IMG/VR virus record: IMGVR_UViG_3300010148_000101
Coordinates: 1 to 25,561 of that record
DNA length: 25,561 nucleotides
Source of the DNA: a virus
Strand: one strand, 5' to 3'
Shown: positions 3,001 to 25,561 of the stretch, in pieces
Layout: each line of letters starts with the position of its first letter
Position numbering within the stretch: the first letter of the stretch is position 1
The notes under the pieces: generated by a model
Told to the model about the DNA's origin: nothing
Database searches by the model: none
The model's input: the letters and a program-made list of their open reading frames with translations, nothing else
Position numbers and translations under genes: made by a program

Positions 3001-3771
3001 CCCACTTCGCTTCTTCACGTAACGGGTGATCAAGGTAATGGTACATTTTTAGCTTACATATACAACAGTGGAACTCAATCAGAAGATAATGGACTTAATG
3101 TTCAAGTAGCATCTTCGGGAAGTTCAGCTCAGGCTCTTAGAGTTAACACTGGAGGAGATTCTAACGCTTTTATAGTCGCTGGAGATGGTCAAGTTGGAGT
3201 CGGATTTTCGCCAAGCAGTTTTGGTCAAAAATTTAATGTTAATGGAAACACGTATCTAAGCGGATCAGTTGGGATAGGGGATTCTACCCCCTCTTACAAG
3301 TTGGATGTTGCAGGAACTGGTAGATTTACTAATGACGTTACTATATCAGGAAATGTTGGAATTAACGGTTTTAGCCCTAGTAGCAGTTATGGCCTCCAAG
3401 TTGGCGGTAATGCTCAAGTTTCTGGCTCTTTCTACGCAAGTAGTAAATCTTTCTTGATCGATCACCCAACTAAAGAAAATAAAAAATTAGAACATGGTTG
3501 TTTGGAAGGTCCTGAATTTGGAGTCTATCACCGAGGCAGAGCTCAATCTAATACTATTACTTTGCCAGATTATTGGACGGGTCTTGTGAGAGAAGACTCC
3601 ATCACAGTGCAACTAACACCAAAAGGCTCCTTCCAGCATTTATATGTGGTTAGTCAGTCATTAACGGAAATAGTAATCGGCGCTGCTGACGGCGAAACAA
3701 TTGACTGTTTCTATACAATTTATGGGGAAAGAGCCGATATAGATAGCCTCGTAGTTGAAAAAGAAGTGTAA
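1..3771 (+). CDS. Large tail fibre / receptor-binding structural protein, 5'-partial
   Basis: The reading frame is open from base 1 and closes with TAA at 3769-3771, so the true start lies before the window; 1256 residues are visible. The sequence is rich in Gly, Ser, Asn and Thr and in short beta-strand repeats. Degenerate units of the form VGIG..(S/N)P...L.V occur near residues 3, 91, 314, 425, 846, 994, 1064, 1089 and 1118. Residues about 184-250 hold another fibre repeat type (LFHDGSNSYI, then VELYYNGTK.LET). Residues about 465-600 form a distinct domain with several Cys and Trp. The last ~110 residues begin with SFLIDHPTKE and contain LEGPEFGVYHRGR, a C-terminal cap pattern I recall from marine phage fibres; the usual peptidase S74 signature is not evident. 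The role is inferred to be a trimeric adhesin at the virion surface. A structural rather than receptor-binding role is possible. Confidence 0.85.
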   Translation, partial: NGNVGINTSSPSAKLHIESDGSHDEGAEIVLKHANNNSTDIVSTLSFQNNAGQVAMIQGGTTGANNNGYISFFTDNAGTSGERMRITSAGSVGIGIASPTALLEVGGDADVYGLIGRAKMGTMGHTDLAGFSHRDTGGTGNYALLQSSAGATYLNAAFDSSISFRVNNADTMYMTSTQLQFNDSKKLILGNDSDLQLFHDGSNSYIQNGSTGSLNVTLNAGGEFAARFVRDAAVELYYNGTKVLETNSTGATVGPIHGSLTFNNTSSVSASTIIQQTYNGGTAELRIGSNVSTTATSAMNILTGNAGVVKFNGFVGIGTATTMSSSAELLGVYSASNGHASFKSSSDSTGTVYIRNVSTTANTWQPYLILADSGGNRGGFALKYSTSGLKVHGQGGIEFWTGSSFGGGSRKMYLESAGNFIVESKVGIGDANPQTTLAVNGEASFGDGNRLSLIGLSIASSSASPNIKIRTKIPFALGSADFTVNLKGFIYGNAETANLTICWHYYNSTFYNASCSSAGGWAPTIQLSAEDWDSSGTKKVCICLSTPGYWVKMYAESMFSHSYNDAYADGWTWVDETASGTGNDLVTASYKADFGRGFLLNNNGVVSVGNNFTIPQGNLLYLDGGSNTYIYSDTADSISYATNGGIRLITNNSGLTIPSNNNLSFGNGANNTGLFRFYNNNATAYYLDWKSTGQRAYVYEGSASGGDYSTTFKNAGSGGHDLYIGGQLNVSDDALSTTRFWVSTSGVVQWGSTASHGTLTWDTDKAVIGGIGTHNLSLVAEGTEVVNSTSSTWDFKKEARFPNNTGVYFLHANGSATAGIKLDTSDHLDFRTGGANGRMILDDNGNLGIAMNPTGARLEVQKNSGNIFKCRGDSSTTRFEVGASGACTIEANTGSYPLKITNADSGDKGLHVSGCSAMIGRTNVSTSYPATAYDLFLGNGNNDGAVLLLYNYAGNYHSALVRYHNNTLKLGLNNSNSADSIFGTTAISVTNTGVGIGVASPTSLLHVTGDQGNGTFLAYIYNSGTQSEDNGLNVQVASSGSSAQALRVNTGGDSNAFIVAGDGQVGVGFSPSSFGQKFNVNGNTYLSGSVGIGDSTPSYKLDVAGTGRFTNDVTISGNVGINGFSPSSSYGLQVGGNAQVSGSFYASSKSFLIDHPTKENKKLEHGCLEGPEFGVYHRGRAQSNTITLPDYWTGLVREDSITVQLTPKGSFQHLYVVSQSLTEIVIGAADGETIDCFYTIYGERADIDSLVVEKEV

Positions 3772-6366: not shown

Positions 6367-7653
6367 ATGGCTACCAGAAATAGAGTTATTTATCAGAGTG
6401 AGGCAGTTTACTGTACTCAAAATGTAAGTTTTAGTGGCTCAAATGTAGGCCCTTATGCTACAAAGGATTTGAATCGTGTTCAAAGCGCGAATTATTCCTT
6501 TAACATAGGACGTACAGATGTCAACCAGTTTGGACAATTAGGAGCTATTGATAGAATTATTACTGAATCTCCAACTGTTTCTTTTGATTCTTCGTATCTT
6601 TTGGCAAATTTTGCTAATGAAGCGAGGCTAGGTTTTTTTGTAACACCAAGTGGGCAAAACGGGCCATTTCGTTCATGTATTTCCCCTCTTGTTGATTCCA
6701 CTGATAATGCATATATGAAGAATTATTATATTCTTCAAGCCAAAGAGGGTAAAGACGCTGATGTTGAGACTTCCGGGACTACTTCTACTACTGGTCAATA
6801 CGAAAGTATCATTGGCATAGGGAATGCGGGTCTAACCTCTTATGCTGTAGAAGCTGCTGTGGGAGGATTTCCTTCAGTATCTTTTGCCGCTGAAGGCCTT
6901 AATATGAATTTTATCACAAATCCTCCAGTGGGGCCAAGTGGTAGTGCGCATGCTTATTATATTTCAGGGGTAAACCCTGCTATTGACCCTGTAAATGGAA
7001 GAGGGTTATATAATGGAAATGCCTCTAATGCAAGTGCAGCGCAAGTTCAAGTTTCTCTTCCCGTTCCTACTGGTAATGCTGGAGGGACTACCGCGGCTAC
7101 AAGAGCGGCTGGGAACGTAAGTGTTTTACGCCCCGGGGACATAAAGCTATTTTTATCAAAGCAAACTAGTAAGGCTGTTGATACAGCTGCCCTAACGACT
7201 TCCATGGATTCTCCAGAGTATGCTGGAGCAAGTATAACCGCAGCTCACATTCAAAGTTTTAACATTAGTTTTGACATGAGCAGAAGTTCAATCGAACAGT
7301 TAGGTAACAAATTCGCTTACGCTCGTCTAATAGACTTTCCAATAAGTCTTTCTATGGGAATTGAGGCGGTAGTAGCTGACCTTACAACAGGTTCTTTGGC
7401 TGAAATTATCAATTGTGATGATACATTTGATGCTCGAATTGCTCTATATAGCCCGGACTGCGTAGCTTACGGAACTGACAAGACTACCGTAGCCGCAAAC
7501 TACATTGTGAAGGGAATCAAATTAGATAGCCAATCATTCAGCTTGGGCATTGGAGATAATAAGACAGTCTCTCTAAGTTTTAGTACTCAAATAGGTGGCC
7601 CAGAGCAATCTGGACTTGGTCTGTTCATGAGTGGATATACTGGAGTGCTTTAA
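6367..7653 (+). CDS. Major tail tube protein with two tandem tube-like domains
   Basis: The 428-residue product has an internal duplication visible by eye. Residues 38-80 (VQSANYSFNIGRTDVNQFG onward, then TESPTVSFDSSYLLANF) line up with residues 295-338 (IQSFNISFDMSRSSIEQLG onward, then IDFPISLSMGIEAVVADL). The second halves also match: PSVSFAAEG near 168 against VSLSFSTQIG near 401. The first copy carries a long Gly/Ala/Ser-rich insertion (about residues 185-290). Position after the neck genes and before chaperone-like genes and the tape measure supports the tail tube role. It has its own leader of 58 bases with a good ribosome binding site (AAGGA) and is followed at once by a strong terminator, as expected for an abundant structural protein. 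A capsid decoration protein is less likely given the gene order. Confidence 0.75.
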   Translation: MATRNRVIYQSEAVYCTQNVSFSGSNVGPYATKDLNRVQSANYSFNIGRTDVNQFGQLGAIDRIITESPTVSFDSSYLLANFANEARLGFFVTPSGQNGPFRSCISPLVDSTDNAYMKNYYILQAKEGKDADVETSGTTSTTGQYESIIGIGNAGLTSYAVEAAVGGFPSVSFAAEGLNMNFITNPPVGPSGSAHAYYISGVNPAIDPVNGRGLYNGNASNASAAQVQVSLPVPTGNAGGTTAATRAAGNVSVLRPGDIKLFLSKQTSKAVDTAALTTSMDSPEYAGASITAAHIQSFNISFDMSRSSIEQLGNKFAYARLIDFPISLSMGIEAVVADLTTGSLAEIINCDDTFDARIALYSPDCVAYGTDKTTVAANYIVKGIKLDSQSFSLGIGDNKTVSLSFSTQIGGPEQSGLGLFMSGYTGVL

Positions 7654-9828: not shown

Positions 9829-12800
9829 ATGGCAGCAGATAAACTTAGCGTAGAGATAGATCTCCAAACAAGGCGAGCGGCAGCTGAACTTAAGAAGCTT
9901 AAAAAGATTGCCTCGGAAATAGGAGCGGGAATTGGTGGGGGTGCGGGAGGTCTTGGTTCTGCAGGAGGCTCAGTTGGGAAAGTCAGAGCCTTGGGGTCAG
10001 GTCTTTCAAAGGCTACTGTAAACGCTGATGAGTTTACAAAATCTCTAGAAGCTTCTAATGCTCGTGTTATAGCTTTTGGAGCTTCAGCTGGGTTAATAAT
10101 GCAAGTAGATAAGGCTCTTAGAGCCATGGTTCAAAGCACTATAAAAGTAGAAAAAGCACTTGCTGACGTTAATATCGTCATGAACCTTAATAATAAGCAA
10201 CTTCAACAATTCAGTAAAGGAATGTTTAAAGTTGCCAAAGAAACTGCTCAAAGTTTCGAAACTGTGGCTGAGGCTACCACTGAATTCGCTCGTCAAGGTT
10301 TAGGTATGGAAAATACATTAGTGCGAACTAAGGACGCATTAATATTGACTCGGCTGACTGGAATGCAAGCTGCAGATTCTGTAAAAGCCTTAACCGCTGC
10401 CGTAAACTCTTTCTCTAAAGAAGGGCTTACTTCAACTGAAGTCATTAATAAAATGGCAAAAGTTGATGCAAATTTTGCTGTAAGTTCGGAAGATTTAGCT
10501 AACGCTATTTCTCGAGTTGGTTCATCTGCCGTTGATGCCGGGGTTAGTATGGATCAATTATTGGCTATAACAACAGCGGTGCAGCAAAGGACTGCTCGTG
10601 GCGGCGCTGTTATTGGTAACGCTTTTAAGACAATATTTACTCGTATTCAACGTAGTGACGTTCAAAAGACTTTAGGTGGCTTTAACATAGCTACTAGAGA
10701 CTTTAATGGCAACATGTTGGACGCAGTGACGATTTTAACAAATTTAGCTGGCAAATTCCAAACATTAACAAAAGCCCAACAGGCATCAGTCGCAGAAAAT
10801 GTTGCGGGAGTTTTTCAGGTAAACATTCTTAGAGCCGCAATGGCAGATTTAGCAGATGCAAATTCTGTAACAGCTAGAGCTACTAGAGACGCTTCTTCTG
10901 CTACTGATGAAGCTATGAAGAAAAACCAAGAGTTGCAGAGGACTATGGATGCGACTATTCAGTCAACGTTAGCAAATTTAACTTCAGCGGGAGCGTCTTT
11001 AGGGGAAGACTTGTTTGGCCCAGCAATGAAAAATATACTAGGCTCAGTCAATGCGCTACTTGATTCTTTCGGGGAAGGAGGAAAACTAGAAGGGTTCGGA
11101 GAGGGGATTGGTAAAAATTTAGTAAAAGGAATTGGTAAATTTATCGCGGGGCCGGGTTTGATTATAGCTGGAGTTGCTTTTGGAAAATTAGCTAAACAAC
11201 TTGGTAAGTTCGCCAGCCAAGCTTTCAAGGATGTGATGGGGCTGAATAAGGCTTTTAAAGAGCGGGCGGCTATGGAAAAAGCCATCGTAGATCTTTTAGA
11301 TAGCGAGCCGGAATTGTTACAAGAAGCAGAAACCGGCGCTAAAGGTCTGCTTTCTGTACAGAAAAAGATAAAAAATACAATCCAAGACCAAAACAATTTA
11401 CTGGCAAGTCAACAAACAGCAGCTGCAGATATAGCTAGAGTGCTTCAGGCGAGTGGGGCTACTATAGGATCAGGCGGAGGCATAATACTTCCTCCGGGGA
11501 TTGGCGCTGGAGGTGTAGGTGGAAAGGGTATAAGAGGGTTTTCAGGAAGAGGAGCTTTTGGTAGAGGTATCCCCGGTAGAGCAAGCGGGGGGCTGATTCC
11601 TAACTTTGCTTTAGGTGGGCTAGCTTCTGCTATAGGAAGAGAAATATCAGCGGGAGTCCCTGCTTCAAAAATAAAAGTAGGCAGTAGCGCTGCTTTAAGA
11701 AGCTCGGGCAACCCCAGTGGAATAGGAGTCTTCAATACAAGAGATGAACCTAGAGGTTTAGGGCAGGGCATTAGTAGATCTGCATCTATGGGTATAAATC
11801 CTAAATCTCATGGCATACCTAACTTTGCTGTAGGGGCGGGACTAAGGGCTCTTGGAACTAAGTTTATTCCAAGTAAAGGGACAATGAAGACAGCAGCTAA
11901 AGGAGCAGGCGCTGGTCTTGCGTTTACAGCCATGGGCGCTTCCGACGGTTTATTTGGTTCTGCTATGAACGTAGCTGCCGGAGCAGGAATGGGAGCTATG
12001 TTTGGGGGAGGCGTTCCGGGAGCAGTAGTTGGAGGAGGTATTGCATTGTTAAGTGAGATTGTATTCGCGCTTGCAGGTTCTAGTGATGAAGCCACTGAAG
12101 CATTAAAGGAAGAAGTAAAAGTTCAAAAAGAATTGGCTTCAGCCAGCACTATAGCTAAAGATGCTTTAGCCAATATGAAAGACGGCTTGCCTTCTTCGAT
12201 TGGAGCTGTTAGGGGTGATATCGTTAGAAGAATTACGCAAAGTAAAGATTTTGAAGATTTCAAAATGGGAGATACCGCAGAGTTTAAAGGTATATCCACT
12301 CCTTCAAAACAATTATCTGCCAGTGAAATTACTACCGCTGTGGAAGCCTATGATAAGAGGGTGGAGTCAAGGAGGAGAATAGGGCTAGGAGCAAGTGGAT
12401 TGCCTGATTCAAGACAAGTATTTGGTTTTGATGATCCTCGTACAAGAGACTTAAGGTTTTCTACCATAAAAGATGCAGTAAGTAAAGGTGCAGGAGGGGT
12501 AGATGCGATAGGTCAAAGACTAGTTGGAAACTTTACTCCTGAGCAATTTAAGGCTATGGAGGAAGGGGGGATGACTTTCAGGCAAATGCTAAGTCATATA
12601 TTTGACGCTCCTGAAAAAGATCTTGAGAAATTCGCTGTTCAAATCGAAGAGTTTTCTGGTGGTGATCTTCAGTCAGTTAGATCTGCATTTAGGAAAACTT
12701 TCTTGAATCAGGAGGTTTACAATAAAGCGTTAAAAAATTTAAATGAGGCTGTCGCTAAAAGCACTTTGGCTCAAATTTCAGACGAACAAATATTATCAAG

Positions 12801-15147
12801 AAAGAATAGATTTCAACTAAGGCTAGCCTCCGAGGCAGCAAGGAGGACAGCTGGGTTTAATAATCGAATGGAAGGCTTGAGAGGCTCAGGTAGATTAGCC
12901 AGCGCAAATGCTACAATGGGATCTGCTGGAGTCGCCTCTGTGCGTTTCGGGAATAGTTTGGCTTCTGCTGGAGTTGCCTTTCAGGGAGCTCAAGCTCAGG
13001 CCGCTGCAGACTTTTCAAAACAGGTTGCTGACGGTTTAGGGAAGTTAGATATAAAAAAATTCATACAAAATTTCCAGAAAGGAATGTCAGAGGGTCAGGC
13101 AGCAAGGTCAAGGACTGCATTTCAAAGTATAACTACTGGAGACTTAAGTGTTTCCGATTTAGAGGAACAGCTAAAACGACTTGAAGGCTTAGCGAATGTA
13201 GGGAGGATAGATCCTAGGGATGTAGATTCATTAACTAAACTAGAGTTTTTGCCAAAAGTTATAGAGGTTCTTTCAAAGTCCACGCAGGACTTAGGCTCAA
13301 AACAAAGAGCAAACGCTGATACTTTAGATAAAGCCACTAAAACGGCTGAAGAACAAAATAAGTTAGATCTTCAAGCAATTCGATTACAATATGTTTTAAA
13401 TACGCAGAAAAGACAAGAATCCAGAGAAATTTCAGCAGCTTTAGCTAGAGCAGAGTTATCAGAGGCAGGGACCCTTCTTTCAAGGGGTCAAATAGGAGCC
13501 CGGGGAAGAAATGCTGCTTTTTCAGCTTCTTTGGCCGCTGATGTTTCTGCTAGGGGCATACAGGAAGGAGACTATGGCAGAGCTTTCCAAGCTGGATTTA
13601 GAAATGAATTTGGATACGAAGGAGTAGATGCATTAGAGGATTTTGAAAATGGCAGCAGGCAAGTTGCCCAGACAATGAAATCATCTTTTGCTGATGCATT
13701 TCAATCAATTGCAAGTGGTGCAAGTACAGTCCAAGGTGCTTTAGCTAACATGGCTCAAAGTATATTAAATTCAATCTCTAGCATGTCTACTCAGATGATG
13801 ACAAATATGATGTTTTCTAAAATGGGTTTTAGCGAGGGAGGATATGTTCCGGGTTACAACGCAGGAGGGCTTGTGACGGGAGGATCAGGACATAAGGATG
13901 ACGTGCTTACTAAAATGCAAGGAGGAGAGTTCGTTATAAAGAAATCTGCAGTAAATAAAATAGGTCTACCTACTTTAAATGCTATTAATGGATACGCTAA
14001 TGGAGGATCTACTGGCCCTTCAATGGGACAGTTAGGCTTAATCGCTGGAGGAGCTAGTGCTTTGTCTGGCGTAATAGGCGCGGCCATGGCTCCTGATCCT
14101 GCAAGGCCCGCTCCTTCTACAGATTATGGTTTTGGAAGAGGGCAGCATGGATTTTTTGGTGGTCCAGATCCGGATGCGCAAGGAGGAGATATTATATCAG
14201 GTGGAGGAACCCGAGCTGGGGTTTCTTTAAATAAAGCTTTTGTATATTACAGGAGAGATCCGAAAACCGGTCAGTTAATAAGTGAGAGTAGGCGTCCTAC
14301 GGAAGGAAGATTTGAAGTGAGTAGTAGATTGTCGCTATTAGGGAGACTGAGCGAGGATGATCCCCAAACGTCAAGGATGTTTGATAAAGAGCAAACTATG
14401 GCAAGGTATCAAGACTATCTAGCTACAGAAACTCAAAGCAGAAAAGATCAAATACAAGCTGTAAGAGATCAAAAGAAAGGTAGATTAATCGGAGCTTACA
14501 TGAATGCTGCGATGTTAATAGGTGGGGCGAAATTTTTTGGTGGTGAAACGGCAGGCACTGAAGCTATTACTGACTCTATGAATGCGGCTGACCCAATGAC
14601 AGCTACTGGAATGCCAATGAGTGCATTAGAAAGGCACGGAGGGAGGATGAGCTATACTCCTCCTGTTGCGATGGATAGATTAGGATCTCATGGTATGCCA
14701 GTGGGAATAGGGGGGAGTGGTGGTGGAGCTAACGGTGGATTGGCAAAAGTTATGGGAGGAGAATATGTAATGAGTCCTGAGGCTGTCCGTACTCATGGAG
14801 TAGGGTTCATGACTGAACTAAATCGTGGAAATGTCCCCGGTTTCGCAGCAGGAGGTTTGTATGGAAATCAAACTGGGCCAACTATAAATAATGGCGGCTC
14901 TACCCTTAACACAGGGGGAAACACAAGCAATAATGTTAAGATAAACATTAACATAGATAAAAGTGGAAAAGCCGAAGCGAGTGCTGATTCTACTTCGTCT
15001 CGTAAAGGCCCTTCAGAAAAAGACGATCAAGAAGAAGTGCAAAATAATAAAGAGTTTGGAGACTTACTGCAAAGTATCGTGGTCAAAGAGATTGTGCAGC
15101 AACAGCGTCCCGGTGGATTATTAAATAGATCAACTACAGGAGTTTAA
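9829..15147 (+). CDS. Tail tape measure protein
   Basis: The 1772-residue protein sets tail length and lies in the tube lumen. The N-terminal part (about 60-400) has the tape measure core, including ASNARVIAFGASAG near residue 75 and long amphipathic helices. Hydrophobic, Ala/Gly-rich stretches occur near 440-460, 690-760 and 1400-1420, fitting membrane-active segments. Residues about 540-595 are Gly-rich. Two GxIPNFAxG motifs lie near residues 586 and 661, and two copies of a VPG(Y/F).AGG plus GGE(F/Y)V module lie in the C-terminal part (near 1338-1370 and 1642-1685). AGGA four bases before ATG supports the start. The stop overlaps the stop of the convergent minus-strand gene. No lysozyme or peptidase motif was evident by eye. 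Confidence 0.93.
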   Translation: MAADKLSVEIDLQTRRAAAELKKLKKIASEIGAGIGGGAGGLGSAGGSVGKVRALGSGLSKATVNADEFTKSLEASNARVIAFGASAGLIMQVDKALRAMVQSTIKVEKALADVNIVMNLNNKQLQQFSKGMFKVAKETAQSFETVAEATTEFARQGLGMENTLVRTKDALILTRLTGMQAADSVKALTAAVNSFSKEGLTSTEVINKMAKVDANFAVSSEDLANAISRVGSSAVDAGVSMDQLLAITTAVQQRTARGGAVIGNAFKTIFTRIQRSDVQKTLGGFNIATRDFNGNMLDAVTILTNLAGKFQTLTKAQQASVAENVAGVFQVNILRAAMADLADANSVTARATRDASSATDEAMKKNQELQRTMDATIQSTLANLTSAGASLGEDLFGPAMKNILGSVNALLDSFGEGGKLEGFGEGIGKNLVKGIGKFIAGPGLIIAGVAFGKLAKQLGKFASQAFKDVMGLNKAFKERAAMEKAIVDLLDSEPELLQEAETGAKGLLSVQKKIKNTIQDQNNLLASQQTAAADIARVLQASGATIGSGGGIILPPGIGAGGVGGKGIRGFSGRGAFGRGIPGRASGGLIPNFALGGLASAIGREISAGVPASKIKVGSSAALRSSGNPSGIGVFNTRDEPRGLGQGISRSASMGINPKSHGIPNFAVGAGLRALGTKFIPSKGTMKTAAKGAGAGLAFTAMGASDGLFGSAMNVAAGAGMGAMFGGGVPGAVVGGGIALLSEIVFALAGSSDEATEALKEEVKVQKELASASTIAKDALANMKDGLPSSIGAVRGDIVRRITQSKDFEDFKMGDTAEFKGISTPSKQLSASEITTAVEAYDKRVESRRRIGLGASGLPDSRQVFGFDDPRTRDLRFSTIKDAVSKGAGGVDAIGQRLVGNFTPEQFKAMEEGGMTFRQMLSHIFDAPEKDLEKFAVQIEEFSGGDLQSVRSAFRKTFLNQEVYNKALKNLNEAVAKSTLAQISDEQILSRKNRFQLRLASEAARRTAGFNNRMEGLRGSGRLASANATMGSAGVASVRFGNSLASAGVAFQGAQAQAAADFSKQVADGLGKLDIKKFIQNFQKGMSEGQAARSRTAFQSITTGDLSVSDLEEQLKRLEGLANVGRIDPRDVDSLTKLEFLPKVIEVLSKSTQDLGSKQRANADTLDKATKTAEEQNKLDLQAIRLQYVLNTQKRQESREISAALARAELSEAGTLLSRGQIGARGRNAAFSASLAADVSARGIQEGDYGRAFQAGFRNEFGYEGVDALEDFENGSRQVAQTMKSSFADAFQSIASGASTVQGALANMAQSILNSISSMSTQMMTNMMFSKMGFSEGGYVPGYNAGGLVTGGSGHKDDVLTKMQGGEFVIKKSAVNKIGLPTLNAINGYANGGSTGPSMGQLGLIAGGASALSGVIGAAMAPDPARPAPSTDYGFGRGQHGFFGGPDPDAQGGDIISGGGTRAGVSLNKAFVYYRRDPKTGQLISESRRPTEGRFEVSSRLSLLGRLSEDDPQTSRMFDKEQTMARYQDYLATETQSRKDQIQAVRDQKKGRLIGAYMNAAMLIGGAKFFGGETAGTEAITDSMNAADPMTATGMPMSALERHGGRMSYTPPVAMDRLGSHGMPVGIGGSGGGANGGLAKVMGGEYVMSPEAVRTHGVGFMTELNRGNVPGFAAGGLYGNQTGPTINNGGSTLNTGGNTSNNVKININIDKSGKAEASADSTSSRKGPSEKDDQEEVQNNKEFGDLLQSIVVKEIVQQQRPGGLLNRSTTGV

Positions 15148-16026: not shown

Positions 16027-19000
16027 CTAATCTTCAGCAAGGATTCCAAATTTTGTATTTACAACTGCACTTTGGTATTTTGTAGCTGATCTACCTTCTG
16101 GGTCTAAATCTACAAATAAAATATCTGAAAAAAGTATTGATGCTGAGTTTACGTTTTCAGTTTTACCTGTTATCCTTTTTATAGCTGCTTTTATGCCTTC
16201 TATACTTCTATTATTTCTATTTGCAGATATGTGAAAAGCCATATACTCAGAAGACAAGAATATGGCTCCAGCACTATTAATAGTTATGCCAAACTGGCCT
16301 GTTCCGGGAGAGATATAGAGGTTTCCTTGGTCATCAAACCACTCCTCACGATAGTGGCCTGTCCCTCCTGTTGTATTTTCAAAATTAGCAAAAACAGAAT
16401 CATCTCCAACATTCTCAACCCTAAGTACATATCGTATTTCCCAGCCAAATACTCCTTCCTCTGGGCCTCTATTGGTCATTTTAATCTGAGCAAAAGAACT
16501 TAAACGGCCGTCTAAACCTGCCTGTAAGATTTTGGTAGGCTGCAGAGGTATCATCCCTCCCCATTTTTCTATTCCATTATAACTTGCTCCATTTATAGGA
16601 AGGGGGAGTTCTAGATATCCGCCTGATAAAGCTGATTGTAAGCTAGAAAAGTCAAACTCGACTTGCGCCCACCCCCTGAAAGCTAGAGCAGTGGCTCCGG
16701 CGCTCATAATACTAGATTCATTCAAAGGGAATGACCTAGGGGAATTTTGGGCTTTAAAGCCTATTATTGTTTCTCCTGTAGCTTCATTTTTTATATTCTT
16801 TGGTTGTTCGCCGATTATTTGATAGTAAGTATCTCCGCCTTTGGCATCCACAACGGATGAGAAATTAATACTAAAATCTTTATAAATAGCATCAGTTTTA
16901 AGAGGTATCGTGTCTGCTCCTACAGTTATAGAGCTTGTGTTGTAGGTCTTGGGATTATTAGTATTGTCGACATCAAATGATGAAAGCAGGCTTAACTCGT
17001 CAAATATTCCGAAAGAAATTTGAATGTTCTCTACTTCTGTGGCAGGAATAGAGACTTTCTTGCCGTCTATTTCTATTTCTTGGGCAGCTCCGCCTTGTTG
17101 CCTAATTTTTGGAATTGGGATTCGGAAGTTATATATATCTTGATCTTCTCCGAATAAGTAATACCCCCTCCAAACATTTTTATCTTTATACTCAGGGCTT
17201 AACTCCTTAACTATTCCTCCGAAAGCTCGACAAGAATTGTCTCCGTCTAGAGTGGCTTTAGAGTAAGTTAAAACATTAGTAGCATTAGCTCCTAAAGTCG
17301 CCCCCTCAGTAGCCATATCAGGAGTTATGTTTAACTCAAAACTAGACGCAAGATTTTTCGGTATCTGCGGGGTCTGTGATTCGTCAAATTTATTATCGCC
17401 TGTTGTAAAGTAATAAATCACACCAGCTGAATTATCAAAAAAGTTTTCTACCTCATCAGGGCTGAATGCAGTAGCTCCCTGTGGGCTTTCAGCTTCGTTT
17501 ATAGCAACTTCGAAATATCCATTTGGATATATAGCGGCTCGTGCAGCGTAAGGCATTTTTTTAACGTGAGCTTGCCAAGGCTCAATCCATTTAAAAGGAG
17601 ATAATTGGCTTTTATATTCTTCTACGTTGTCTTGAGCAAAGAGTACTCCGCTTGGCGATTGAATCTCTACTCCCATTACGTCATATTGTTTATCTATTTC
17701 AGAAATATTCCAACCTTCTCGATTATTTCCTGCTTCGGATTTATATAGAGTATTATCGAAAACTTTATTTTTCGCGCTGGTTATACCGTTACTATCATGA
17801 GCTTCTACAACTATATCGAATTTCCTAACAGGAAACTCACTAGGATTAGCAGAAATATTAAAACCGCTTCCACTTACTGAAAGAAACTCAGGTTCTGCCT
17901 CTTTTTTCTGTGTCAAATTTAGGTTCTCCCAGTTGGTAATAGGGGAGCCATTTGCCCAGCCTGTTACAAAGTCATCGTCAAAATATTTTTCAATATCGTT
18001 GGGGTTATTTAAATATCTTTCTAATACGAAGCTAGGAGGGTCCGTTTGGGGCGTATATCCGGTAACTTCTAAATAAATTTTTTCACTCGGTTGATTAGTT
18101 TCACTATGTGGTCTAACCGTTATTCTAAATTCAACAAGATCGTTAGGGATCGATAAGGGAAATCTTACTGGAGTAGACTCATTAACTTCCGCGATATTGA
18201 ATATTGTATTAGAAACTGAGCTCCAAGAAAAAGAAGGCTCTATCGACTCTATGGCATTTAGGCTGGTTTGTTGAGCCGGCTCTACCTCATCTTCATTTAG
18301 ATTACTAATAACAGTTGCTCCTACAATCGATTGAGTTATACTTTCAGTATTATTAACTGTAATCTTACTGACCATACCATAAGAAATATCGTTACCTAGA
18401 GAGGAGGCAAAAACGAAAACAAAATAGTCTTGAGAAGTGGCATTGAGAGGTATGTCTGTAACCATATATTCAGCATATACCTCTTCGTCTAAAGTCTTTT
18501 CTTTGTCAAAAGAATTGAGAGTTTCACGAACATAAGGTTTATAAGCTGTAAATTTAGAAGGGTCAACTACATATACGCTACCGTTAATCATACTGTTGGG
18601 TAGGCCGTATTCCGCTTGGGTAGCGGCATCAACAATTAAATTTTCTTTAGTAAAGCCAATGTAATAATCTATATCATCAACTGTATCTCCTTCGGCTCTT
18701 TGTATTTTGTAGGTTGCAGGCGATCCTGACTTTTTGGCTTCTACAGGAGTAACTGTATACCCTGCTTGATTAAAATTAATTTCAATAGTCTTGAAAATAT
18801 TTACAGGATCAGGGTTGCCATCCTTTACCTCAAAGGCAAGTGAGTTCGCTAGCGGGTTAGTGCTGTCGGTGGAACCTATAACGCCAGTAGGAAATAAAGG
18901 AGGATTAACCATGTCGTCACTAGTTAATTTTGCAGAATTGAAAATTTTATCATATTTACCAGTCGAATAAGCTAAAGCAGATACGCCGTAAGTATTAGTC

Positions 19001-21531
19001 TCCTCTTCTTTTATATTTATAATTTTAAAGTTGGAATAATTACCCTCAATAAACTCAGGGTCATTTGGATCGTTAGGCTCTACGCACCAAATTAAGTTTT
19101 CTCCAGAATAGCAGCCTCCACTATAATCTTGAACAGTGTTTGCGTTAATATTCGTAGCTACTCCTGTATTGGTGTACCCTGTTATAACATAGTTGCTAAA
19201 GTCTAATTGGTTTCCTGTCCCTCCATAGGTAGCGCCCGTGCTGAAATATATTTCTGTGCAAACTCCGCTGCCGCTTAATTGCAGATCAGATCTATAATCT
19301 CCAGAAATAGTAGTTGCATCTGTTCCGTTAAAAAGTAAATTTTGAATCTGGCTTCTTCTTATATCTGTCGCATCTCCTGTGGTGGTGTTGTAAGTGGGAG
19401 TGAGCAAAGAGAATTTATATGTTTTTCCTGCGGTAAAATTTAAAGCTTGGTCAAGTATTATACTATTATAAGCAGAATTATGAGTGACTGTTGCCCCCGG
19501 GCTGTTAGTCGCTGTAAGTGGGCGGACTGCGTTAGTTCTTCCGCTGTATTTTAATGGGCTGCGAAAGTTATCATAAATTTGTATTACGTCTCCGGGCATT
19601 AGGTAGGCTCCATCATTACCGACAGAAAAAGAAACAGTCTCAGTTTCTTCAGATTCACTAGACAATATCCATTTAGCAAAACGCCTAGCCTGCCCTCGGC
19701 TTGTCGCCCCTAAAGCGCTAGTTTCTATTTCTCGTATTCCGTAACGCCGAACTGATTCTTCATCCTCCAAGTATTCAATAGCGGGCTGGAACAAATTCTT
19801 TTTATCATTGTACCTTACGATGGCTACCGAGTGACGTGCTTTTTGGGACGAGCTAGAATAAGTAAAGTTTCCGTCGATAACATTTGAATTATTAAATTGA
19901 TAAACCGCGTCTTTAAGTTTGTCCTGCACTGCAAAAATACTACCATTAGAATAGTAAGCTATACCTCTAAAGATAGAGGTTAAATCATTTAGCACTTTAA
20001 AAGCCTCTTCTCGCGAGGTTAGTATATAGTTAATAGTGAAACGTGGCTCCAGAGATCCGTAAGTGTCAGGGACAAGTACATCGCAGTATTGAGCTATTTC
20101 GTAAATCGTCCATTTATCGATTTGAGACTGATCAATAAATTCGCCTAACCCGTAGCGTGAGTTAGTCATTAAATCGTAAAGACACCAAGCAGGATTATCA
20201 GTCCACTCTTTTAAATATTGACCATTAGCGTCTCTTTTAAATTCTCCATCCCAAAAAGATTCCGCTTGTGAGCCCGGCCTGCTCCAAGTCATCGCTGTAT
20301 AGTCATCGCTTGAGGAGGTATTAAATACAGAATTAGTTTTAGTATTGTTAGTAGCGTTACTGTTACCGTAAGATTTTAAAATAGGATCATAGTTATTGGG
20401 TATTTTAACCTTAGTCATTCTTACGTCATAAGATCGAGAGGGGATTCGAGAAAAAGAACGGGCGTCAAACTGAGAATAAACCATCGAAGAGTAAGGATAC
20501 CTTAACTTAGTCCTATAAACTTCAACTAAAGAATCAACAAAAGTAACATTCTTTAAAAAAGACGTTAAAGATTCTGGGGTAATTCTTACAATTCTTATTT
20601 CCCATCCCTCAAATCCTTCTTGATCGCTAAAGTCTGATTGCAGTACAATACTGCTAGTCCTTATATAAGGGGAATCTATCTTACCAGTGACTTTTTCTTT
20701 CAAGGGGCCGCTCCATCCGGTTCTTCCTCCTGACTCGGTGGTTTTTCCTGTTTCTGATGTATTGGAGAACCTCGCGTCAAAGATAGGGCGGTGATATATG
20801 TTGTACTCAATAGTCCGGGCTTTCGTGTCTCCAAACCCTACAGCCGGCACTCTTTTTTTATAGGTTTTTGGTCCTGCTTGAACGCTTTCAAAAAGAGCAG
20901 AAATTTTAATATTAACGTCAATCTGTCCTACTTCTTTATTTAGAATAGAATAAGTCTTTGCATACTTATCTATTGTGATGCCATCTTTAAGTTGAGCGGG
21001 CTTCGTTGAAGTAGGTGTCGCATCTCCGCCTTTGATTTCTGGCCCGTAAAGCCTTTCACCTATTGATCTGTTAATGGTTAGGTCTAAAGGGGTTGTTGCA
21101 GAGACTCCGGCATATGAAGACATGGCGGGATTTAAAGATGGGATGTTTCCTGCGGGATTACCTTTGACATATTCTACATTAACAGAGCTGAAATTATAAA
21201 ATCCATCGTTATCAACGACGGGTATTTCATTCCAAAAAATAGATTGTAAAAAACCTAAATTATTATCGTCGCTACCTAAAGCCCCAGTAGCTTGGTAATG
21301 TTTAAAATTAACATTTTTGTATCCAGTGGCATTTTCTTCTCCGATGTATTTATAGTTTCCGCTAACAAGCCCTTCCATGCTGCCTTCACAAAGTAGGTCG
21401 ACAACCTCTGCGTAAGATCTTGATACTACAGTGTTGTCAGCAGATGCGGCTGATGATCCTATTTTAACTGCGCTTACATCCGTGACAATAGGTCGTGCTT
21501 GTTTTTGTTTTTTCTTTTTAAATAAACCCAT
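16027..21531 (-). CDS. J: Tail tip / central fibre protein, lambda J-like
   Basis: The product has 1834 residues, much longer than lambda gpJ (about 1130). The N-terminal ~850 residues carry the gpJ core: SYAEVVDLLCEGSMEGLV near 37-54, EEAFKVLNDLTSIFRG near 500-516, then a segment with GDVIQIYD and, near 849, VSALAYSTGKYDKI, which matches the end of the hub region in gpJ proteins. The remaining ~980 residues are beta-rich and probably form the receptor-binding extension. GTG at 21546 is also possible as start, but the bases GGGGAG at 21544-21539 form a ribosome binding site for ATG at 21531, only two bases after the stop of the preceding gene, so ATG is preferred. It is the fifth gene of the M-L-K-I-J operon. 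Confidence 0.92.
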   Translation of the reverse strand: MGLFKKKKQKQARPIVTDVSAVKIGSSAASADNTVVSRSYAEVVDLLCEGSMEGLVSGNYKYIGEENATGYKNVNFKHYQATGALGSDDNNLGFLQSIFWNEIPVVDNDGFYNFSSVNVEYVKGNPAGNIPSLNPAMSSYAGVSATTPLDLTINRSIGERLYGPEIKGGDATPTSTKPAQLKDGITIDKYAKTYSILNKEVGQIDVNIKISALFESVQAGPKTYKKRVPAVGFGDTKARTIEYNIYHRPIFDARFSNTSETGKTTESGGRTGWSGPLKEKVTGKIDSPYIRTSSIVLQSDFSDQEGFEGWEIRIVRITPESLTSFLKNVTFVDSLVEVYRTKLRYPYSSMVYSQFDARSFSRIPSRSYDVRMTKVKIPNNYDPILKSYGNSNATNNTKTNSVFNTSSSDDYTAMTWSRPGSQAESFWDGEFKRDANGQYLKEWTDNPAWCLYDLMTNSRYGLGEFIDQSQIDKWTIYEIAQYCDVLVPDTYGSLEPRFTINYILTSREEAFKVLNDLTSIFRGIAYYSNGSIFAVQDKLKDAVYQFNNSNVIDGNFTYSSSSQKARHSVAIVRYNDKKNLFQPAIEYLEDEESVRRYGIREIETSALGATSRGQARRFAKWILSSESEETETVSFSVGNDGAYLMPGDVIQIYDNFRSPLKYSGRTNAVRPLTATNSPGATVTHNSAYNSIILDQALNFTAGKTYKFSLLTPTYNTTTGDATDIRRSQIQNLLFNGTDATTISGDYRSDLQLSGSGVCTEIYFSTGATYGGTGNQLDFSNYVITGYTNTGVATNINANTVQDYSGGCYSGENLIWCVEPNDPNDPEFIEGNYSNFKIINIKEEETNTYGVSALAYSTGKYDKIFNSAKLTSDDMVNPPLFPTGVIGSTDSTNPLANSLAFEVKDGNPDPVNIFKTIEINFNQAGYTVTPVEAKKSGSPATYKIQRAEGDTVDDIDYYIGFTKENLIVDAATQAEYGLPNSMINGSVYVVDPSKFTAYKPYVRETLNSFDKEKTLDEEVYAEYMVTDIPLNATSQDYFVFVFASSLGNDISYGMVSKITVNNTESITQSIVGATVISNLNEDEVEPAQQTSLNAIESIEPSFSWSSVSNTIFNIAEVNESTPVRFPLSIPNDLVEFRITVRPHSETNQPSEKIYLEVTGYTPQTDPPSFVLERYLNNPNDIEKYFDDDFVTGWANGSPITNWENLNLTQKKEAEPEFLSVSGSGFNISANPSEFPVRKFDIVVEAHDSNGITSAKNKVFDNTLYKSEAGNNREGWNISEIDKQYDVMGVEIQSPSGVLFAQDNVEEYKSQLSPFKWIEPWQAHVKKMPYAARAAIYPNGYFEVAINEAESPQGATAFSPDEVENFFDNSAGVIYYFTTGDNKFDESQTPQIPKNLASSFELNITPDMATEGATLGANATNVLTYSKATLDGDNSCRAFGGIVKELSPEYKDKNVWRGYYLFGEDQDIYNFRIPIPKIRQQGGAAQEIEIDGKKVSIPATEVENIQISFGIFDELSLLSSFDVDNTNNPKTYNTSSITVGADTIPLKTDAIYKDFSINFSSVVDAKGGDTYYQIIGEQPKNIKNEATGETIIGFKAQNSPRSFPLNESSIMSAGATALAFRGWAQVEFDFSSLQSALSGGYLELPLPINGASYNGIEKWGGMIPLQPTKILQAGLDGRLSSFAQIKMTNRGPEEGVFGWEIRYVLRVENVGDDSVFANFENTTGGTGHYREEWFDDQGNLYISPGTGQFGITINSAGAIFLSSEYMAFHISANRNNRSIEGIKAAIKRITGKTENVNSASILFSDILFVDLDPEGRSATKYQSAVVNTKFGILAED

Positions 21532-21533
21532 GG

Positions 21534-22292
21534 CTATTCTCCCCACTCCCTCACTCTTGAGGCTAGAAGGCCTCCGGCATTAGGTATGTTATATTTTAAT
21601 CCGTAATCCCCTAGACCCCATGAGCTCTTGGGAACGACTTCTGCGTCAACATCAACCGTGTCTTGAGCAGACTGAATAACATGACTCCCTACTAACAGTC
21701 TTCCGTATCCAACAAACACAGGTCCGCCTTCTCTTATTGTGTTTTCTGGCCCGTTAAATAAGTAAGATCGAGAGCCTCCTGACTCTATTTCTGTAAAATC
21801 TCCAAACTTCGGCATAGGAGTTAACAAGTTTGTAACTCCTGCTGCTACCAGCCCGATGCCTCCCAAGACCAAAGCTCCCTTCATCCCTGCGCTCAATCCA
21901 GCTCCTAACCCAAAAGCTCCGACTCCTGTTGCTATTAAGGCAACTCCTACTACAATAGTTAAAATAGACATCAAGTCGTCAGAGCCCTCTATAATAGGGA
22001 CTATATCTATGGTTTTTATAGAGTTACTTTTTATCATTAGCTCCGAACTGTTTAATCCTTCTAAAGTGTTAGGGTCTTTACCTTCTTCGATTCCGAAGTC
22101 GTTGTCGTTTATGAGAACTCTATACTTAATATTCTTTTTGTCGTTTTCAAGCAGATTTTTATAGAGTTTTTTAGTGTTAGACTCCACTCCTCTAATTGCC
22201 TCGCCAACGCTTCTTGCGGCTAACTTCCATTCAGATTGCCCTAACTGGTCTCCTAAAACTCCATGAAATTTTATATTAATTAAGTTGCTCAT
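21534..22292 (-). CDS. I: Tail assembly protein, lambda I-like
   Basis: The 252-residue protein has the three parts expected for the gpI family: an N-terminal beta-grasp-like domain (about residues 1-105), a hydrophobic Gly/Ala-rich stretch (about 107-157, LTIVVGVALIATGVGAFGLG and following), and a C-terminal part with YLFNGPENTIREGGPVFVGY and GSHVIQSA near 180-212. It acts in tail tip initiation together with J, K, L and M. It overlaps the end of K by 17 bases and ends two bases before J, indicating one transcript and coupled translation. The upstream Shine-Dalgarno match is weak, which fits coupling. Confidence 0.9.
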   Translation of the reverse strand: MSNLINIKFHGVLGDQLGQSEWKLAARSVGEAIRGVESNTKKLYKNLLENDKKNIKYRVLINDNDFGIEEGKDPNTLEGLNSSELMIKSNSIKTIDIVPIIEGSDDLMSILTIVVGVALIATGVGAFGLGAGLSAGMKGALVLGGIGLVAAGVTNLLTPMPKFGDFTEIESGGSRSYLFNGPENTIREGGPVFVGYGRLLVGSHVIQSAQDTVDVDAEVVPKSSWGLGDYGLKYNIPNAGGLLASRVREWGE

Positions 22293-23022
22293 GCCTGTAT
22301 ATTTTGCAAATTGTTTTTTGATAAGGTTTACTTAAAGGTTCTATACATAAGTATTTGTTGCGGGGGTGGTGAAGTATTTTGTCTTCTCCTAAATAAATTG
22401 CCACATGATTAGGCCCTCTATTTTTAATGTATTCAAAAACTATAACATCATGTTTTTTTAAATCCTCAGTTGGATTGATTTCAATTATAGGTAGTTCAGG
22501 ATTACTTTTATTTAAATTAAATAAATCTTGGATTAAGCTTGGATTTTTCTGATGCCATGTGTGGTCTTTTCGGGTATTTGGAGAATCTGCCAAGTCTATT
22601 CCAAGGTTCTTGTAATATTCCTTAACTACAGTATAACAATCAGATTCACCTATTTTAAATACCCTGTCGTAAAGAAATGTTTTGTCTCTATCAGGGTCAA
22701 ATGCGCTAAATGAATCCTTTGTTGAGCAGTAAAGTATAAATGGAATTTTATGAGACCTGCTATGGAGTATATCATTAGGAGAGAATTTATTATTATCTGA
22801 ATTGTGGGAATGGTATACAGCTTTTATAGAACCGCATCTTGAGGCTCTAAGATAATCTCGAGGCAGTATAGAAAAGTGATTTTTAGGTGATTCAGAAACA
22901 TTAGAGCATTCAAAGACGTCAATAGAATTATTTTTTTCTACAAGTAGCCCGCAGCACTCTTTAGTTAAATCCTTTAAGGCGTGTTTTTTTATTTTTTCTT
23001 TTATGTTATCTTGTAGAATCAT
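22276..23022 (-). CDS. K: Tail tip peptidase, JAB/MPN plus NlpC/P60, lambda K-like
   Basis: The 248-residue protein has two hydrolase domains. The JAB domain (residues 1-115) keeps the full metalloprotease motif: Glu22 and His71, His73, Ser81 and Asp84 (HSH, seven residues, S, two residues, D). The NlpC/P60 domain (115-248) keeps Cys129 in GESDCY, His206 in NHVAIYLG and a third polar residue at His218 or His219. The family is expected to cut peptides in cell wall or to process a tip protein; in lambda gpK this architecture belongs to a tail tip assembly protein that may also be needed for DNA entry. All key residues are present, so both domains are probably active. It starts within an ATGA overlap with L and overlaps I by 17 bases. 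Confidence 0.93.
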   Translation of the reverse strand: MILQDNIKEKIKKHALKDLTKECCGLLVEKNNSIDVFECSNVSESPKNHFSILPRDYLRASRCGSIKAVYHSHNSDNNKFSPNDILHSRSHKIPFILYCSTKDSFSAFDPDRDKTFLYDRVFKIGESDCYTVVKEYYKNLGIDLADSPNTRKDHTWHQKNPSLIQDLFNLNKSNPELPIIEINPTEDLKKHDVIVFEYIKNRGPNHVAIYLGEDKILHHPRNKYLCIEPLSKPYQKTICKIYRHEQLN

Positions 23023-24335
23023 CCTTGCCTTTGTATTTTTCTAGCCGCCGGGAAGCCTCCAAACGGGAGCAGTCCTTTTACTCCAGCAGATCCGTCCGAA
23101 TCTTTTCCTAGCGCGCATTTAGAACCGAGAACTACCTTTCCCTTAGTACTCCCCCATCTCATTCTGCATCCTGTAAGTGTTTTAGAACACTCGTCAGCCT
23201 CCCAGTAGTCAGAGTTAGGGGGGAGAATAGCATCTGATTGGGGAGCTCCGTTATCTTTAATACATACAAAATAATATTTTATATCATCTTTTTCCAAGAA
23301 AACCCACTGCCCTTTCATGTAACCTGAAGGTTGTCCGCTGGAGTTAACTGGATTTTTTTGCCAAAGACCTCTGTCGTTGCCTCCTGCTATTGAAAGTCTT
23401 TCGTCTTTGTCATTAGCTACAGGGAGGGTTCTTTCAGGAAGTCCTGTGCCTTGAGCTTTGGTTACCGTGGCCCCTGCTGCTACATGAAGACTGTCAAGTT
23501 CGGCTTTTTTTAATATAGGAACAGCGTCGCCGGGCGACGGTACCCCTGCACTAAAGTTAGTATTCCATTGTGCCTCTTCGGCCTCTGTTGCGTGTTGATA
23601 CCAACATCCTATCCCTCTATATTGCCATACGCATTTATCTGAGTTTATTACCCTCTTAGGAATCTTTGTCCCTTCTAAGTCAAGTATAGAGGAAAGCTGG
23701 TAGGTGATAATACTTTTATTTTCGGTTTGTTTCCTTTCAATGAAATAAACATCTTTAGGCAGTTCTGCGAAAGGGTCGGGTTCGTACCCTTGGGGAATCT
23801 GTTGAGATTTCTCTGAGAGATTAGCCCCTGAGAAAAGCGTAAAGTTGGTTTTATCTAAATATTTAGCGAAGGTTCTACGTCGAGTCACTGTAGATCCTAT
23901 TATATCGCCGAATTTTCTTATCTCATGCTTTAATAAAGCTAACTGATCTATGCCGTTTTCAGATTGACTTGAAATAGATAGAGTAGGTTGGGGTAGCGTG
24001 CCTTTTGTAGTTGCTTCAAATCCTTCTGCAGCAATCGGGGCTGGATGGTAAACTTTTCCTTGCCACACAATATAAGAATTAAAAATATTTACATTATTAT
24101 GAAATCTTAAAATATTATCGTTTAAATCAATCCGTTTAGTTATGTTGTTTTGCTTAAACTGGGCGTTCAATTCTTGTTGTTCAGCTGCAAGGGTAGTGTT
24201 TTTTGACTTCACCAGCTTGCTTATATCTATTTCAAATAATGTTATTAAGGCGGATGGGGTCAGATTAGTGAGCTCAAAATTCAAAGATTTAATTGAGGAT
24301 TCAGCTCTAGTATTATCTATCTCGTAGTCGGGCAT
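23019..24335 (-). CDS. L: Minor tail protein, lambda L-like, with large insertion
   Basis: The product has 438 residues, against about 230 in lambda gpL. It shares the tip-protein pattern with N-terminal ELTNLTPSALITLFEID and the C-terminal cysteine cluster that binds an iron-sulfur centre in lambda gpL: Cys235 and Cys244 (C-x8-C), then Cys383 and Cys390 (C-x6-C, ECSKTLTGCRMRWG); a fifth Cys lies at 407. The C-terminus FGGFPAARKIQRQG also fits. Between the two cysteine pairs lies an insertion of about 115-140 residues, part of which (residues 338-380) looks like a small carbohydrate-binding module with W344, YYF and PPNSDYW. L starts three bases after the M stop and overlaps K as ATGA. Confidence 0.9.
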   Translation of the reverse strand: MPDYEIDNTRAESSIKSLNFELTNLTPSALITLFEIDISKLVKSKNTTLAAEQQELNAQFKQNNITKRIDLNDNILRFHNNVNIFNSYIVWQGKVYHPAPIAAEGFEATTKGTLPQPTLSISSQSENGIDQLALLKHEIRKFGDIIGSTVTRRRTFAKYLDKTNFTLFSGANLSEKSQQIPQGYEPDPFAELPKDVYFIERKQTENKSIITYQLSSILDLEGTKIPKRVINSDKCVWQYRGIGCWYQHATEAEEAQWNTNFSAGVPSPGDAVPILKKAELDSLHVAAGATVTKAQGTGLPERTLPVANDKDERLSIAGGNDRGLWQKNPVNSSGQPSGYMKGQWVFLEKDDIKYYFVCIKDNGAPQSDAILPPNSDYWEADECSKTLTGCRMRWGSTKGKVVLGSKCALGKDSDGSAGVKGLLPFGGFPAARKIQRQG

Positions 24336-24338
24336 CGA

Positions 24339-24914
24339 TTAGTTAGAGGTGTTGGTTTCTACAAAATTAGCTTTTATAGTATAATTATTGTGAAAAGTGA
24401 AATTGCTGTTGAAAGTAGGGCAAATGAATCTTTTTTTGTATGTAGCGTCTGCATAAATAGGAGGTAGTGTGCCTACAACAAAGGACTCCGTTCCCTTTCG
24501 GGCTTTTAAAAACTGCAAAATAGCTGTAGCTTCTTTCTCGCTCCTCATGTCAAAACTAACATTAAGTTTAATCATTTGAGTAAAAAGTCCGTCAGGGTTT
24601 CTTTGTTCATAGCCGTTACCAAAAGCAATAGTGTTTACCTTCGGGGAATGATCAGCACTTAAGTTGTAGGAGGCTGTCCACAGAAAGTTAGGGGTCATTT
24701 GACCATTACAATTTGTGTATCCTCCCCAATATTGATTGTTAAAAGGAGCGGTAGCGGGTGGGGTGTTATTGGCGGGGACGTCCTTAAGGGCATAATAATA
24801 ATTAATAGCTTTGGGGACTCCAGTGGTGCCAATGGATATTTTTTGATAAACTATATCATTTTTATAATAGACTCGCGTAGCGTTCCACTGATCAATGTTG
24901 TATATGCTAGACAT
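24339..24914 (-). CDS. M: Minor tail protein, lambda M-like, with N-terminal extra domain
   Basis: This 191-residue protein is longer than lambda gpM (about 110). Residues about 88-191 match the gpM pattern: IAFGNGYEQRNPDG near 96-109, then a helix with AILQFLKARKG and strands ending in YTIKANFVET. Residues about 8-66 form an additional domain with W10, Y17, K18-D20-I21-V22-Y23, a YYYALK strand and PP...YW, resembling a chitin-binding-type module. The start has a clear AAGGAG two bases before ATG. It is the first gene of the minus-strand operon; the divergent region upstream must carry its promoter. It should work in tail tip assembly between tube and J hub. Confidence 0.88.
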   Translation of the reverse strand: MSSIYNIDQWNATRVYYKNDIVYQKISIGTTGVPKAINYYYALKDVPANNTPPATAPFNNQYWGGYTNCNGQMTPNFLWTASYNLSADHSPKVNTIAFGNGYEQRNPDGLFTQMIKLNVSFDMRSEKEATAILQFLKARKGTESFVVGTLPPIYADATYKKRFICPTFNSNFTFHNNYTIKANFVETNTSN

Positions 24915-24977
24915 TTCTCCTTAAACCTTTATTTATTATATTACACACAAAAAAGAGTGTAAAATAAAGATAAGGCA
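24915..24977. promoter_or_regulatory. Divergent intergenic region with two back-to-back GTGTAA motifs
   Basis: This 63-base AT-rich gap separates gene M (minus) from the last gene (plus) and is the only non-coding place from which both could be started. It contains TTACAC at 24941-24946 and GTGTAA at 24957-24962, inverted copies with 10 bases between. Read toward M the sequence is GTGTGTAATATAATAAATAAAG; read toward the plus gene it is GTGTAAAATAAAGATAAGG. Both resemble the motifs at 7716 and 9808. AAGGAG for M and AAGG for the plus gene complete the two leaders. Promoter activity is inferred. Confidence 0.5.
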
Positions 24978-25561
24978 ATGTTAGGAAGAATAACAAGGGA
25001 GGCTGAAAGCCTCACTATAAATGGTAGCGGGATACAAGGAATTGAATCTATTTCGGCAAATTACAATTCTGTAGCTCAACCTCTATCTAATTTAGGCATA
25101 AATCACATACAATTTGCTCCTCAAGGCCCTCAGCAAGCCAATTTGACAGTAAATACCCTATTAACTCATACGCTCAGTGATTCAGCCCAAGTAACTTCTT
25201 CGGAAATTCTGTATAATTTCACCGGAGAATCTCCTTTTAGCGGTGAAGTGGCTCATGGCGGTAAAAAATTTATTTTTACGGAGGGATACATGGATTCTTA
25301 TTCTGCTTCTTGTGCCATTGGTGAAATTCCTTCTATTTCAATGAGTTCAGTAATTTATGGAGAATTTGGGACGGGAACCCTTGTGGTTGACCCTGATGTC
25401 TACCCAAGCACCTTAAATATACCTAGTTACAGCTCTATGGAGATAAATTTAGACACTTTCACTACAAATCGAGTTTTAAATTTTGATATTAAAGTAGCTA
25501 CTCCTCGTTTACCTTTATATGCAATAGGGTTGGATACTCCTACTGGGGTTATAGCGGGCAG
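24978..25561 (+). CDS. Tail-tube-like protein, 3'-partial
   Basis: An open frame starts at ATG 24978, preceded by AAGG, and continues to the window end; 194 residues are visible. Residues 22-62 (GIESISANYNSV, then LGINHIQFAPQGP and VNTLL) resemble the first domain of the major tail tube protein (VQSANYSFNIG, QLG, SPTVSFDSSYLL). Residues 103-128 (GYMDSYSAS..IGEIPSIS) resemble GLTSYAVEAAVGGFPSVS there. From about residue 158 a second domain may begin (MEINLDTFTTNRVLNFDIK). It is therefore probably a second tail-tube-fold protein, perhaps a distal tail protein, a tube extension or baseplate ring. It may be the first gene of a further plus-strand operon. Similarity was judged by eye and is moderate. 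Confidence 0.6.
   Translation, partial: MLGRITREAESLTINGSGIQGIESISANYNSVAQPLSNLGINHIQFAPQGPQQANLTVNTLLTHTLSDSAQVTSSEILYNFTGESPFSGEVAHGGKKFIFTEGYMDSYSASCAIGEIPSISMSSVIYGEFGTGTLVVDPDVYPSTLNIPSYSSMEINLDTFTTNRVLNFDIKVATPRLPLYAIGLDTPTGVIAG

Follow-up and report, generated by a model that had tools for sequence, protein, structure and literature searches.

The usual description of a phage tail tube is of a single ring that repeats, together with one or two adaptors. In phage T5, p140 is a paralogue of pb6 that lacks the Ig domain; its single ring lies between pb6 and the ring of pb9 and is enclosed by a collar of p132, which carries the side fibres (PMC10038345). p140 has been described as a landmark specific to T5-like phages (PMC10038345). 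In T4, gp54 and gp48 form extra tube-like rings between the tube and the baseplate (PMC8718954; PMC10038345). Here we describe a gene, denoted X, whose product is related to the tail tube of its own phage and is encoded beside a lambda-type tip module.

Gene X and its neighbourhood

The window, meaning the whole stretch of DNA that was analysed, is a 25,561-base virus record, and the record end cuts X (Table 1). The complete protein is about 276 aa in relatives. Upstream of X, the J-, I-, K-, L- and M-like genes form a lambda-type tip module spanning 16027 to 24914, on the strand opposite to the tube and tape measure genes. Database searches gave the tube gene no match of its own; we identified it because it precedes the tape measure gene and shares a superfamily with X. 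At the start of the record, positions 1-3771 hold a large tail-fibre-like ORF (1,256 aa, open at the record start), whose N-terminal part matches tail fibre proteins and whose C-terminal part matches two PHROGs of unknown function.

Table 1. Tail genes and the M-X spacer in the window
Feature	Position	Strand	Remarks
Major tail-tube protein	6367..7653	+	428 aa; X homologue by family profiles
Tape measure protein	9829..15147	+	
J-like central fibre / hub protein	16027..21546	-	
I-like tail assembly protein	21534..22292	-	
K-like tip assembly protein	22276..23022	-	
L-like minor tail protein	23019..24335	-	
M-like minor tail (tip) protein	24339..24914	-	Phage_min_tail
M-X spacer	24915..24977	.	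63 bp between divergent starts; two-fold symmetric, near-invariant in relatives
Gene X, 5' part	24978..25561	+	194 codons from an ATG, open up to the record end; predicted double tube-domain protein, p140-like by fold

Related stretches in IMG/VR (46) yielded full-length X proteins of 276-292 aa, which are 58-74% identical to the window protein over full-length matches, with up to 96% in one short fragment. Profile search reached relatives down to 26% identity, and two distant members used as queries in further scans added more, extending the full-length range across all relatives to 267-310 aa. A single scan of GTDB genomes detected one related contig. tblastn of X and of distant X against 50,697 phage records found no relative in isolated phages. 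The source of X is a lineage of uncultured marine phages.

The window spacer between M and X carries TTACAC-N10-GTGTAA. Comparison of alleles showed that each arm reads outward GTGTAA.ATAA, with a purine-rich stretch between this motif and the start codon, and exact copies of the core GTGTAAWATAA occur in the window in the spacer only, one per strand. The spacer is probably a divergent promoter or an operator, and it is a candidate for a bidirectional late promoter.

As the window itself ends inside X, the genes that follow were examined in relatives. Each distinct X protein was taken once, and downstream genes were counted only where enough sequence follows. M is divergent from X in all 93 distinct alleles. 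Downstream of X and in the same direction, the gene denoted B comes next in 68 of 69 cases, followed by C (60/60) and then D (53/53). B and C are further tube-superfamily genes, and D encodes a long TIG-repeat protein of about 1,100-1,200 aa with a TIG_SUH match. The sole exception is L134, in which X adjoins M but none of B, C and D follows directly. In one clade C and D are fused (L135:7768-12558, L139:3039-7832 and L140:9786-14606) into a protein of about 1,600 aa with the TIG domain straight after the C part. Longer C proteins of 424-431 aa, versus about 293 aa, were also observed (L011:7476-8771, L025:8636-9922, L029:7201-8487 and L115:7739-9013); in L115 the added residues form an insertion within the C-terminal half.

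Long contigs hold more tube-superfamily genes. The two longest contigs each encode a third divergent tube homologue of 474-478 aa, denoted T3, directly after the portal gene (L063:3612-5036, minus strand; L066:3941-5377, plus strand), which is possibly a neck or terminator ring. Five such genes (tube, T3, X, B and C) are present in a 144-kb contig (G009) and six in a 170-kb contig (G007), including two tandem tube genes. Tandem major tube genes were seen in five of the related records searched (L064:5428-8151, L049, L050, L052 and L054/L059), one copy in L059 being enlarged to 573 aa, and a single copy is present in the window and in the record of L048. Searched by tblastn against the same 50,697 phage records, T3 gave zero matches and a C-family protein four insignificant ones only (E 0.3-0.4).

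Homology of X to the tail-tube protein

The initial annotation had taken X for a paralogous tube-fold protein on the basis of a spaced pattern shared with the major tube protein. This pattern was borne out, as SANY...LG...LL is present in both proteins and the rest of the pattern reads MDSYSASCAIGEIPSIS in X (residues 105-121) and LTSYAVEAAVGGFPSVS in the tube protein (residues 156-172). Taken as a bare window pair the likeness is weak, and BLASTP of the two window proteins alone gave a best segment of 20 residues at E 0.043. An X HMM gave the tube protein of the window a score of 14.9 bits (E 7e-4), versus 10.7 bits for the best of 2000 composition-shuffled copies.

Comparison of families gave a far stronger signal. 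hhalign of 49 X proteins against 15 tube proteins reached 95.4% (E 1.7e-8) and was collinear over X 18-275, covering both tube halves; an earlier hhalign with shallow families had given 47% only. To avoid circularity, strict families were rebuilt and each HMM was searched against all ORFs plus reversed sequences. The strict X HMM matched 12 of 12 tube proteins (best 3e-9), with controls at 0.16 for the best reversed sequence and about 6 for the best tip-protein family. The X HMM also matched both copies of the portal-side paralogue T3 (1.9e-8), 62 C proteins (6e-7) and 65 B proteins (6e-5), while the B HMM matched C (1.9e-17) and X (3.2e-13). In an independent whole-record search, the tube profile retrieved X in two other records (1e-4 and 2.2e-4). 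Compared domain by domain, matches were collinear (X1-B1 94%, X1-C1 89%, X2-tube2 93%, B1-C1 98% and B2-C2 89%), with controls from tip-protein and other families at 1.1% or below. The same comparison gave no sequence signal for an internal repeat of X (X1-X2 0.7%).

We accept the homology of X and the tube protein because the family profiles stand clearly above chance, the window pair alone being unconvincing. By these profiles, X is a distant homologue of the phage's own tail-tube protein and a member of the same superfamily. The profile-profile comparison, run on full-length relatives, placed X with the tube family and with no unrelated family, in agreement with the paralogy first proposed.

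Predicted fold and comparison with known tube proteins

We modelled X with AlphaFold2 from an alignment of 49 sequences; the first of these was L005, a full-length relative that shares 74% identity with the window protein. The model is nearly all beta (pLDDT 75.9, pTM 0.75). Foldseek against the PDB returned ten matches at E<1e-3, every one a tail-tube protein. First in rank was T5 p140 (7qg9_G, E 2.8e-9), a 298-aa chain which a search of the PDB with the T5 gene identified as 'Baseplate tube protein p140'; SH-Ab15497, T5 pb6, DT57C and P74-26 were also matched. Alignments to double-domain tubes covered about 290-360 columns with TM (query) of 0.5-0.6. SPP1 Dit reached only E 0.057; the best structural match of X was thus a tube protein and not a Dit or hub protein. 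Among predicted viral proteins, the named matches were mostly tail, major tail or minor tail proteins. An earlier run with a shallow alignment gave a model of low confidence (pLDDT 51), for which p140 and tube proteins ranked first too.

X almost certainly has the tube fold, and the model predicts two tube beta-sandwich domains in one chain; this double-domain assignment rests on the model because the internal repeat is invisible by sequence. The structure prediction, made for a full-length relative, bears out the tube beta-sandwich that the initial annotation had expected. For B, C and the major tube protein, we infer the fold from homology. Sequence searches of the PDB with the X, tube, B and C profiles gave nothing relevant, and matches of X to Pfam Phage_tube_2 (PF18906) were sub-threshold, with few members matching (best E 0.011, 15.8 bits versus a gathering cut-off of 27).

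T5 p140 (PDB 7QG9, 9IOZ; DT57C 8HQZ chain L) has the double tube-domain fold over its full length, as predicted for X. Both proteins (298 aa for p140, 276 aa for X) are tip-linked tube paralogues without large inserts. The genetic settings differ: the p140 gene follows pb6, whereas X diverges from a lambda-type tip module and heads the X-B-C-D row. Moreover, no sequence homology between X and p140 was detectable (X HMM E 41), and because this sequence test fails X is kept out of the p140 family; it is described as working like p140 but not as a member of that family. T5 pb6, the P74-26 tail tube and the SH-Ab15497 major tail protein also have a fold like that predicted for X (Foldseek E 3e-8 to 1e-6), but they form the shaft, whereas the phage of X has a separate major tube protein. 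The T4 proteins gp54 and gp48, which are likened to X by description, belong to a contractile tail, unlike X.

Probable place of X in the tail

Rings with the tube fold are also known from the neck, from terminators and from Dit, so the location of X in the virion is not settled by its fold and the position of its gene. Among the roles offered at first (a distal tail ring, a tube variant or a duplicated hub), we favour the distal tail ring, given that X always adjoins the tip module and that no solved fold is nearer than that of T5 p140. By analogy with T5, we estimate at roughly 60% the probability that X forms a special ring where the tube meets the tip, working like p140. Such a ring would be pseudo-hexameric, built from three copies of X, and its bore would equal that of the tube. 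It would occur a single time in the tail, stacked between the final ring of the major tube protein and the ring of the M-like tip protein. Without large inserts (276 versus 428 aa), X would offer a plain outer face on which tip parts may dock.

The tube variant proposed initially fares less well. In this reading X, with B and C, would be a multi-copy variant of the shaft tube, or would form a ring that initiates or terminates the tube, instead of serving as the one adaptor between tube and tip. X shares its fold and double domain with the tube protein, and the tandem major tube genes of several relatives demonstrate that variant tube proteins occur in the group. Every relative, however, encodes X with the tip genes and not with the tube genes, and for a position at the neck T3, beside the portal, is a better candidate than X. 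We therefore regard this reading as improbable.

Less probable again is that X, B and C kept the tube fold but sit around the tube, as peripheral collar or fibre-attachment proteins, and hold D. The gene row shared with D and the C-D fusion would fit such a role, but known double tube-domain proteins form coaxial rings, and X may act without B, C and D, given L134, where it lies next to M and none of the three follows directly. That X is a duplicated hub or a distal-tail (Dit-like) protein is very doubtful: the tube fold is used by Dit and hub proteins too (PMC10038345), but M- and L-like tip genes are already there, as are separate I- and J-like genes, which makes a duplicated hub unlikely, and Foldseek favours tube proteins over SPP1 Dit by orders of magnitude.

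If X forms the junction ring, B and C may be additional rings, and C would most likely anchor D as a side appendage, as the C-D fusion of one clade suggests. Tentatively, and with rather less than even odds, the end of the tail could consist of distinct tube-fold rings stacked in the order X, B, C, with the C ring bearing the long TIG-repeat appendage. Were this stacked arrangement true, each virus would have five or six tube paralogues, and its tail, joined to a lambda-type tip, would change in ring type from one position to another.

Precedents for an extra tube-like ring are already known in T5 p140 and T4 gp54. The more striking feature is found in relatives, beyond the window: three tube paralogues in a tip-linked row, accompanied by a TIG-repeat protein. 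Pfam and PHROGs leave these structural genes unnamed, and the present analysis annotates the group. In this uncultured lineage of marine phages, a lambda-type tip goes together with a double-domain tube and a p140-like protein. At least five paralogues have arisen from the tube gene in long contigs, three of them in the tip-linked gene row. The system is thus suited to asking how rings sharing one fold gained different positions.
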